This document shows positions 36,425 to 38,449 of a stretch of DNA of 64,000 nucleotides, piece by piece. Under the pieces are notes generated by a model. It did no database searches. It saw only the letters and a program-made list of their open reading frames with translations, and had not been told where the DNA came from. The DNA is taken from the NCBI RefSeq assembly GCF_900156885.1, contig NZ_FTOY01000009.1:1-64000 (forward strand). The letters run 5' to 3'. The number at the start of each line of letters is the position of its first letter. The stretch's first letter is position 1. This DNA comes from Limosilactobacillus caccae. GTDB lineage: Bacteria > Bacillota > Bacilli > Lactobacillales > Lactobacillaceae. A program made the position numbers and the translations under genes.

Positions 36425-37276
36425 ATGAAAACTGATAAAACACGCCAACACTACCTCCGAAAACTGGAAGAACGCTGGGATAAGATGACGATTACCAGCG
36501 ACCCACTGTTTGGGCTAGTAATGGAAAATGAGCAGATTTGCCACGGACTGATCCAACGCGCGATTCCTGAGATTACGGTTACAAAGATCAAGCGGATTGA
36601 AACGCAAAAAGACATCAGTAGTTACGGACTTGATCGGAAGGTGCGTTACGATGTTTATGTTGAAGATGACCGCGACCGCATCTATGTGATTGAGATGCAG
36701 ATGGTAAACCAGCATAATTTGCCAGCGCGACTGCGTTATTACCAGGAACAAATCGATAGTGAGTTGCTTATGCCAGGGGATGATTACCAAAAGCTATTAA
36801 ATTATCCCACCTATGTCATTATGTTCTGTAACTTTGACTATTTTCAGCGGGGCTGGGCCAAGTACCAGTTCGATTTTGCCTGTACTCGCGATCGCCAGCT
36901 TAAATTGGGCGACAACCGCACCGTAGTTGTCTTTAATGCGACGGCTAACACGTTTGCAGAAGATGAACCAATGCGTAACTTTCTCCAGTTGATGCGCAAT
37001 CAGGTGGTTGCTAATGATAACTTTGTCCAAACTATTCAAAATGAGATTAAAAAAATTAAGCAAAGTCCAGAAAGGAGACGAGGGTTTATGAAATTTGAGC
37101 TAGATTTAATGGATGCGCGGCGGGAAGGATTTAACGCGGGCCGTGAAGACGGGATCAGAGAGCTTATCCAAAGCCTCCGACAAGCCAATTTTCCTGATGA
37201 TGATATCAGAAAAAGCTTAATGAATGGCTTCCATCTGACTGCTGAACGGGCACAGGAGTACCTTCACCGCTATTGA
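36425..37276 (+). CDS. Rpn-family / PD-(D/E)XK nuclease-like protein
   Basis: A 283-aa protein of the Rpn group (recombination-promoting nucleases, annotated as PD-(D/E)XK nuclease family transposase). The start KTDKTRQHYLRKLEERWDKMTITSDPLFGLVM contains the conserved D-P-x-F-x-x-V segment. The catalytic core is visible as YDVYVED followed by YVIEMQM (the D...ExQ variant of D...ExK). The C-terminal part is helical with REGFNAGREDGIRELIQ. Family members cause DNA cleavage and recombination in vivo in E. coli; no IS ends flank this gene. TATAAT (36408-36413) lies just upstream. Confidence 0.85.
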   Translation: MKTDKTRQHYLRKLEERWDKMTITSDPLFGLVMENEQICHGLIQRAIPEITVTKIKRIETQKDISSYGLDRKVRYDVYVEDDRDRIYVIEMQMVNQHNLPARLRYYQEQIDSELLMPGDDYQKLLNYPTYVIMFCNFDYFQRGWAKYQFDFACTRDRQLKLGDNRTVVVFNATANTFAEDEPMRNFLQLMRNQVVANDNFVQTIQNEIKKIKQSPERRRGFMKFELDLMDARREGFNAGREDGIRELIQSLRQANFPDDDIRKSLMNGFHLTAERAQEYLHRY

Positions 37277-37286
37277 TAAAATAAGG

Positions 37287-37315
37287 TTGACAACTTACTT
37301 TTAGAAAGTTATTAT
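37287..37315 (+). promoter_or_regulatory. Promoter of the cysteine leader and cysteine synthase gene
   Basis: TTGACA (37287-37292), 17 bp, TATTAT (37310-37315), a near-consensus promoter. Transcription should start near 37322, about 28 nt ahead of the leader peptide ATG. Confidence 0.85.
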
Positions 37316-37349
37316 AGTGATAATTTGATTAGAGGAGGATTAACCAAAG

Positions 37350-37433
37350 ATGAACAACTACTTTGCTAAGGCGAATACTTGTTGTTGTGAATCGCGTCTT
37401 ATGCGACTCACTCTTTGGTATTCTCATTTTTAA
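37350..37433 (+). CDS. Cys-Cys-Cys leader peptide (27 aa)
   Basis: A short ORF with a consensus ribosome site (AGGAGG at 37333-37338). It encodes MNNYFAKANT followed by three consecutive TGT cysteine codons (37380-37388), then a Leu- and Arg-containing tail, and stops at 37431-37433. Thirty bases later an intrinsic terminator (37463-37503) precedes the cysteine synthase gene. This is the layout of a ribosome-mediated attenuator whose control codons match the end product of the downstream enzyme. The peptide itself probably has no role beyond regulation. It is too short for usual gene finders and I recognise no named family. Confidence 0.8.
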   Translation: MNNYFAKANTCCCESRLMRLTLWYSHF

Positions 37434-37462
37434 CTGAATTACTGAAAGATTGATTGCCACAT

Positions 37463-37503
37463 AAGGCGTAGATTCAAGGAATCCTTGGGTTTACGCCTTT
37501 TTT
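37463..37503 (+). terminator. Leader terminator (attenuator) before the cysteine synthase gene
   Basis: A continuous 17-bp stem with a few G-U pairs (37463-37479 with 37483-37499), a 3-nt loop and six Ts (37498-37503). The segment 37394-37403, just after the Cys codons, can form 10 bp (two of them G-U) with 37460-37469, the 5' arm of this terminator, as an antiterminator. The competing local hairpin 37392-37406 would hide that segment. Confidence 0.85.
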
Positions 37504-37534
37504 GCTGCCTTTTATTAGGAAGAAGGAGAAAATA

Positions 37535-38449
37535 ATGTTAGTGGAAAATACTTACGAATTAATTGGTCATACCCCCTTAATGCACTTGCCGATGAAGACG
37601 CCGAATAATGTTAACATCTATGCAAAATTAGAAATGTTTAATCCTGGCGGTAGTATCAAGGACCGGCTGGGGATTGCCCTTATCCAACGGGGAATCGCTA
37701 GTGGCAAGGTCAATGAGCAGACGACGATAATTGAACCGACAGCAGGTAATACTGGGATTGGAGTTGCCCTTGCCGCTCTGAAATATAAGTTAGCGGTGAA
37801 ACTAGTGGTGCCAGAAAAATTTAGTTTTGAAAAGCAAACCTTAATGCGGGCGCTAGGGGCTGAGGTGGTCAATACCCCAAGTGCGGCAGGGATTGAAGGG
37901 GCAATTAAGCGGGCAAAGGAACTTGCTAAGCAGGTTGGCAACGCCTACCTTCCCTTGCAATTTGCGAATACGGCTAACCCGGATGTATACCGAAAGACGC
38001 TTGGCCCGGAAATTCTAGCGGACCTAGATAACCGGCCGCTTGCTGCCTTTGTTGCTGGCGCAGGAAGCGGGGGCACCTTTGCTGGGATCCAGCGGGCCCT
38101 GCAGGATGCCTACCCAGAAATTCAGGGCTATGTTGTTGAACCAGCTGGCTCTATCCTTAACGGTGGCCCTGCCCATTCCCACCGGACAGAGGGGATCGGG
38201 GTTGAGTTTATTCCACCCTTCTTTAAAGGTTTGAATTATGCCGGCGTGAAAACGATTAGTGATGATGATGCCTTTTACTACGTTCGCTGGGCGGCAAAGA
38301 ATCTTGGCTTGTTCATCGGGAGTTCAAGTGGGGCAGCACTAGCAGCAAGCTTACAGGTGGCAGCAACGTTGCCTGCCGGGGCAAACCTTGTGACAGTCTT
38401 CCCAGATTCGAGTGAGCGGTACCTAAGTGAAAATATTTACGAGAAATAG
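37535..38449 (+). CDS. cysK: Cysteine synthase / PLP-dependent beta-replacement enzyme
   Basis: PLP fold-type II enzyme that makes cysteine from O-acetylserine (or a related activated serine) and sulfide. Start set at the ATG of [14 protein letters not shown], with AAGGAG upstream; the longer open frame upstream belongs to the leader. At 304 aa it has the usual length. PLP Lys42 is in [10 protein letters not shown], the substrate loop is PTAGNTGIG, the phosphate-binding Gly-rich segment is [11 protein letters not shown], and SSGAALAAS is near the C-terminus. It is also similar to cystathionine beta-synthase-like enzymes of lactobacilli. Expression is probably set by the Cys-codon attenuator just upstream, which supports the cysteine assignment. 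Confidence 0.9.

Follow-up and report, generated by a model that had tools for sequence, protein, structure and literature searches.

The window, a 64,000-nucleotide stretch of a Limosilactobacillus caccae contig, carries a cysK-type gene preceded by a short and strongly structured leader region. The parts of the locus are as follows.

37287–37315, forward strand: promoter, TTGACA-N17-TATTAT, with 11 of 12 matches to the consensus.
37333–37338, forward strand: Shine-Dalgarno sequence AGGAGG of the leader open reading frame (ORF), 11 nt ahead of the start codon, which is rather far.
37350–37433, forward strand: leader peptide ORF of 27 codons, MNNYFAKANTCCCESRLMRLTLWYSHF*, with its ATG at 37350; kept in relatives.
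37380–37388, forward strand: three Cys codons, TGT TGT TGT, the putative sensor, read from the sequence; the Cys run is kept in relatives.
37389–37409, forward strand: hairpin 1:2 (GAATCGC / GCGACTC), predicted to hide the antiterminator segment; −5.6 kcal/mol, z −2.3.
37389–37403, forward strand: antiterminator segment 2, which pairs with 37460–37475, from covariation, a swap test and folding.
37460–37475, forward strand: antiterminator segment 3, which overlaps the 5′ arm of the terminator, from covariation, a swap test and folding.
37463–37503, forward strand: intrinsic terminator of 17 bp with T6; hairpin at 37463–37499, T6 at 37498–37503.
37329–37350 with 37412–37433, forward strand: possible helix hiding the leader Shine-Dalgarno sequence, from folding and from own-versus-swapped pairing at 63 loci.
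37535–38449, forward strand: cysK-type PLP enzyme (cysteine synthase / cystathionine β-synthase group), the putative regulated gene, from profile and structure matches.

The first-pass annotation of this DNA had described the promoter, the AGGAGG, the 27-codon ORF, the TGT triplet and the 17-bp terminator with its T6, and each lies exactly where it had been placed. The pairing it drew between 37394–37403 and 37460–37469 also forms as described, with 10 bp of which two are G-U, and can be extended by a further 5 bp (37389–37393 with 37471–37475). When the RNA in front of a waiting ribosome is folded, the antiterminator runs inward as a long composite stem (37403–37423 with 37436–37457). The leader RNA (37322–37508) has a folding energy of −61.1 kcal/mol, whereas its shuffles average −37.2 (z −6.0), and the terminator likewise folds far better than its shuffles (z −7.3). 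In the region scanned, neither promoters (3 found, 4.8 expected) nor terminators (2 found, 3.3 expected) exceed chance by count alone, so the evidence that carries weight is conservation and covariation. The gene immediately before the leader, at 36425–37276, encodes an Rpn-family nuclease/putative transposase (TIGR01784); at one other locus (L193) a similar-looking gene lies, by eye, downstream of cysK instead.

The product of 37535–38449 had been named cysteine synthase. The gene is indeed of the cysK type, but the name is a loose one: the closest solved structures are 5b1h and 5b1i (both labelled cystathionine β-synthase), 5xw3 and 6ahi, the labels among them comprise cystathionine β-synthase, O-acetylserine lyase and cysteine synthase, and the product scores under the TIGR01139 cysK cut-off. 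The nearest cysK relatives of this gene are in Limosilactobacillus, at 84–86%.

An orthologous cysK was found at E 1e-80 or better in 105 of 396 genomes of the family, at 106 places; eight more places from a genus search brought the set to 114 loci, and the upstream regions of all were read. A strict scan of 560 nt, requiring a Shine-Dalgarno-like site and an ORF of under 60 codons with two adjacent Cys codons, found a Cys-run leader before cysK at 109 of the 114 Lactobacillaceae loci, compared with 3 on the opposite strand and a mean of 7.0 over ten shuffles. Three adjacent Cys codons occur at 73 of the 114, against none on the opposite strand and 0.2 in shuffles. Loss of the Cys triplet or the ORF in relatives had been named as grounds for abandoning the proposal, and the element is conserved at these 109 loci. 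All 109 strict matches have, in the interval from leader to gene, a hairpin followed by a T-rich tail, its energy being −9.9 kcal/mol or better throughout and −15 or better in 105; with one shuffle per locus as the control, 8 reached −9 and none reached −15. Run upstream of 12 paralogous cysK genes, the scan gave a single chance match. Three of the five strict-scan misses show a leader by eye: Cys-Cys-Cys leaders are present in L042 and L045, where the ribosome site is weak, and in L130. A fourth, L104, lies at the end of a contig and has 112 nt of upstream sequence, and in the fifth, L006, cysK stands behind another gene, with no leader found and no Cys-Cys-Cys run within a further 3.6 kb upstream.

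Between genera much of the remaining leader sequence varies, but the Cys run persists. At L319 (G007:C238) a stop codon directly follows Cys-Cys-Cys and the downstream RNA pairing is, by eye, retained, which suggests that the peptide beyond the Cys run may not be needed. L322 (G280:C108) reads Cys-Cys-Ser where others read Cys-Cys-Cys; its terminator arm is less regular, and it is perhaps a decaying copy. At several loci (L003, L031, L032, L197 and L321) a short inserted element with a hairpin of its own replaces the outer part of the terminator directly after segment 3; L006 also has a copy of it.

A set of 80 named loci, which overlaps the family loci, yielded leaders by scan in 63. These come from Limosilactobacillus, Paucilactobacillus, Loigolactobacillus, Companilactobacillus, Lactiplantibacillus, Lacticaseibacillus, Lentilactobacillus, Secundilactobacillus, Ligilactobacillus, Weissella, Periweissella, Oenococcus and Tetragenococcus, together with Listeria grayi. 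The 17 named loci lacking a scan match comprise nine from Bacillales (L255–L258 and L260–L264, 0 of 9 by scan), five more distant relatives (L266–L270, one of them Staphylococcus; 0 of 5 by scan), L204 and L249, with roughly 90–130 nt of upstream sequence each, and L209, where a leader is visible by eye. Because the scan finds it in neither the nine Bacillales nor the five more distant relatives, the element is not general to this enzyme. At L016, from another family of the order, there is no leader. We took a further family (G042) to be Enterococcaceae because its L299 leader equals that of a named Enterococcus faecalis record. From 105 genomes searched there, 48 matched and 30 loci were read. 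A leader with a Cys run is present at 29 of the 30, together with a terminator-like hairpin; the exception, L288, has by eye a leader in which Cys is encoded once. Both leader and terminator are plain to see in this family, and the antiterminator pairing is weaker. In E. faecalis NZ_CP143580.1 (L303:2274–2411) the annotation lists the leader ORF as a hypothetical protein of 45 residues, WP_002355203.1, which is better described as a putative leader peptide.

A conserved, strongly structured 5′ leader with a terminator before cysteine genes could also belong to a metabolite- or tRNA-binding riboswitch, either a T-box or an unknown class, in which the Cys-rich ORF would be incidental; indeed, the available part of PMC6004538 reports a Cys T-box before a transporter on a Lacticaseibacillus paracasei plasmid. 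We regard this as very unlikely here. No Rfam family matches at gathering score in the window or at the leader in 20 relatives' loci scanned over their whole length, so T-box, S-box and other known RNA families were rejected, and the Cys run persists through an otherwise variable leader. The T-box model (RF00230), which finds 24 places in the organism's own genome, has no match in the cysK leader or at the second copy of the element described below. Sub-threshold matches to STnc320, SNORA14 and TeloSII_ncR30 (E 0.12 to 4.4) were treated as chance. The suggestion that lactic acid bacteria have here a solution different from their usual T-boxes and regulators is supported in that no T-box or Rfam match was found there. 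To this is added that the element is not isolated, being present before this cysK group at nearly all Lactobacillaceae loci read, before a cystine-type transporter and, in Enterococcaceae, before the cysK group again.

To examine the antiterminator, we took segment 2 and arm 3 from the 109 family loci, giving 99 distinct pairs, or 63 after a redundancy cut. Across the 63 pairs, a segment forms a duplex of −21.9 kcal/mol on average with its own partner versus −15.3 with swapped partners, and this own mean was not matched in any of 5000 permutations. For 12 of the 63 leaders no other partner does better than the own one, whose mean fractional rank is 0.10; L002, L039 and L005 would pair better with about 30, 32 and 47, respectively, of the 62 swapped partners. 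Class I, chosen by its leader peptide pattern, comprises 38 of the 114 loci and 34 distinct sequences, whose terminator arms were aligned independently. In a fixed register of 13 pairs, 92.3% of cells are paired and 43 cells are double changes; slid registers give 28–50%. In 2000 permutations of the arms, with kinship left in, none reached the observed pairing (maximum 84.8%) or the number of double-change cells, while at least one reached 10 double-changed pairs and 35 reached the number of pair types. The first-pass annotation had proposed testing whether the antiterminator pairing covaries in relatives, and compensatory changes on both sides are present at 10 of the 13 pairs in the 34 class I sequences.

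These pairings also bear on translation attenuation, in which the leader would gate the ribosome-binding site of cysK, as cited for mycobacterial poly-Cys leaders and described for cysteine genes of Mycobacterium smegmatis in the available part of PMC13236596. Since the terminator-like hairpin stands between leader and gene in all strict family matches, and since the alternative pairing uses the terminator arm, we consider such a mechanism exceedingly improbable. A DNA-binding regulator acting on the promoter, with the terminator setting a fixed level only, would leave the Cys codons and the covarying antiterminator unexplained. The promoter spacer is very similar within a Limosilactobacillus subgroup (ACTTACTTTT...), and PMC6004538, in the part at hand, names regulators of the LysR type for sulfur genes in streptococci and in Lactococcus lactis. 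The best promoter-like match ends 27–34 nt upstream of the leader start at 23 of the 29 loci printed, but by eye the 29 promoter-like sites have no common spacer motif across genera. A promoter operator was rejected on this ground, and we hold regulation from the promoter alone to be highly improbable, while a regulator may act together with the attenuator.

The leader Shine-Dalgarno sequence may itself be folded away by late leader sequence. At the 63 loci, the own helix averages −13.1 versus −11.3 kcal/mol for swapped partners, with none of 5000 permutations reaching this, and one locus (L011) has 13 adjacent base pairs. The own partner is best in 4 of 63 only, and this second helix is accordingly put forward as a weaker claim than the pairing of segments 2 and 3.

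We then modelled how the position of a ribosome on the leader might affect these alternatives in the window. When the ribosome was represented as a mask at Cys12 and Cys13, the ribosome-binding-site helix closed around it, which is implausible, so the RNA ahead of the ribosome was folded alone, with assumed footprint edges from +11 to +15. With Cys11 in the A site, the computed antiterminator probability is 0.82–0.93 over all five edges. With Cys12 it is 0.03–0.92, antitermination being predicted at most edges; with Cys13 it is 0.00–0.54, predicting hardly any antitermination; and with Glu14 it is 0.00 at every edge. Once the ribosome is placed at the stop codon, the RNA behind it is predicted to form hairpin 1:2 with a probability of 0.98–0.99. 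In computed folds with no ribosome, the ribosome-binding site of the leader is folded away and the terminator forms. When the RNA is full-length, the terminator is the minimum-energy fold in all five states tried, a stalled ribosome included, and antitermination must therefore be kinetic, occurring during RNA synthesis. When the ribosome is masked at the stop codon and the RNA ends at 37479, the antiterminator (8 of 9 pairs) takes the place of hairpin 1:2 in the minimum-energy fold, which pairs across the ribosome; with RNA to 37475 or 37508, hairpin 1:2 is present.

Taken together, the locus has a short ORF with a start site and a Cys run, a terminator between leader and gene, an antiterminator that covaries and shares an arm with the terminator, downstream genes in the cysteine pathway and, in computed folds, an antiterminator freed by a waiting ribosome. 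We conclude that the region upstream of cysK is very probably a cysteine-responsive, ribosome-mediated transcription attenuator, and that its tiny Cys-codon gene probably lets the cell turn cysK on only when cysteine is short. When Cys-tRNA is sufficient, the leader would be translated to its stop codon and hairpin 1:2 would form behind the ribosome; segment 3 would then be free to build the terminator, and transcription would stop ahead of cysK. When Cys-tRNA is scarce, the ribosome would wait at the first or second Cys codon and cover the 5′ half of hairpin 1:2, leaving segment 2 free to capture segment 3, and the polymerase would read into cysK. Should no ribosome load, the ribosome-binding site of the leader would stay folded away, the terminator would form and the gene would be off. 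Leader-peptide (ribosome-mediated) attenuation is a classical mechanism, and the Escherichia coli trp attenuator comprises a leader peptide, a 1:2 hairpin, a 2:3 antiterminator and a 3:4 terminator, with its ribosome-binding site partly folded away. Likened by description, the present element has the same layout, with Cys codons where trp has Trp codons.

The same genome carries a second Cys-Cys-Cys attenuator outside the window (L161, G000:C4:52983–53122). Downstream of it lie a cystathionine γ-synthase/lyase-type gene and then a cystine-type ABC permease, ATPase and binding protein, named by similarity with best matches under curated cut-offs. This second copy came from a covariance model (R1) built from 12 genus sequences, which matches in 38 of 395 genomes of the order, members not being counted from its weaker matches outside the family. 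A 31-base leader pattern with up to three mismatches occurs at 33 places in 28 of the 396 family genomes, and the reversed control pattern at none. Of the loci whose next gene is not this cysK, ten were read; the protein that follows resembles, by eye, the cystathionine-type enzyme in seven and the transporter permease in two, and the tenth, L318, has no ORF within the limit. In two genomes of one genus (g54; L165 and L166) the element precedes a transporter alone, the L165 permease having been scanned, and in one genome (L163) it precedes a metA-like gene and, by eye, a second cysK. At L167 (G099:C1:344400–348400), an additional stretch of about 1.2 kb, which may be an insertion element, separates the terminator of the second attenuator from the operon.

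From these loci we draw a broader reading, which we think has an even chance of being correct: that Lactobacillaceae and Enterococcaceae share an undescribed class of Cys-codon attenuator running a cysteine regulon, with a second gate in which the leader hides its own ribosome-binding site. The regulon would cover cysK and cystathionine genes, serine acetyltransferase, a cystine-type transporter and, in one genome, a homoserine acyltransferase. Such a class would be a widespread alternative, within the order, to Cys T-boxes and DNA-binding cysteine regulators. The second gate would allow few ribosome entries per transcript, and an untranslated leader would mean that the genes are off.

A link to measured expression comes from L. 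paracasei, whose cysK-ctl-cysE genes are studied for the sulfur flavour of cheese (PMC6004538, from the part available). In strain FAM18149, the same text gives higher expression of cysK2-ctl1-cysE2 in cysteine-deficient than in methionine-deficient medium, with Ct values for ctl1 of 21.4 and 25.7, respectively. It further describes high 5′-UTR coverage, a terminator AAGGGCGCGAAA-N16-TTTCGCGCCCTT and no T-box, and calls the mechanism yet to be discovered. On plasmid pW56 of L. paracasei W56 (L301), an operon annotated cysM, metB, cysE carries MMSQSMFNAINCCCRTTRFWRCSAC followed by the AAGGGCGCGAAA-N16-TTTCGCGCCCTT terminator, a match read in W56, the published strain being FAM18149. The palindrome of PMC6004538, for which Liu 2012 is also cited, is thus the same as the terminator of the element in L301, and expression is higher when the medium is deficient in cysteine. 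The available text names no leader ORF, Cys codons or antiterminator for that palindrome, whereas the present element has all three. The attenuator offers a testable answer to how L. paracasei cysK-ctl-cysE responds to cysteine (PMC6004538).

Several systems, known to us from parts of their reports, resemble this one. The uORFC-8-2 motif before cysS in Rhodobacterales, proposed to act by Cys-tRNA-sensing transcription attenuation, combines a short leader ORF containing tandem Cys codons with RNA stems and a terminal terminator (PMC8632094). It differs, as likened by description, in belonging to Alphaproteobacteria and to a Cys-tRNA synthetase gene, whereas the present element is from Lactobacillales and precedes genes for cysteine synthesis and cystine-type uptake. 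Mycobacterial and actinobacterial leaders likewise carry runs of Cys codons before cysteine genes (PMC1262725, PMC13236596). Their upstream regions, in the mycobacterial case, have no conserved terminator hairpin according to the accessible part of PMC1262725, and the title of Canestrari 2020, cited in PMC13236596, describes their leaders as leaderless; here we find a terminator/antiterminator switch and a Shine-Dalgarno start. Within Firmicutes, leader-peptide attenuation is described as seldom reported (PMC2965389 and PMC5794164, in part). The Leu-rich ilv-leu attenuator of Staphylococcus aureus (PMC5794164) and the His leaders of hisS/hisZ in bacilli (PMC2965389) are examples for other amino acids and genes, again likened by description, and branched-chain leaders predicted in Lactococcus and Streptococcus, also Lactobacillales, are cited in the portion of PMC5794164 at hand. 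In the literature searched, whose coverage left most subscription journals outside, we recognised no report of a Cys attenuator in Lactobacillales. The element is a widespread addition to known ribosome-mediated attenuation.

The regulation of such cysteine genes in lactic acid bacteria had previously been left unexplained, and the codons and pairings set out here could be tested by a handful of point changes. A textbook mechanism in an unusual place, the attenuator looks like the usual switch for this group of cysteine genes in food and gut lactobacilli and in enterococci.
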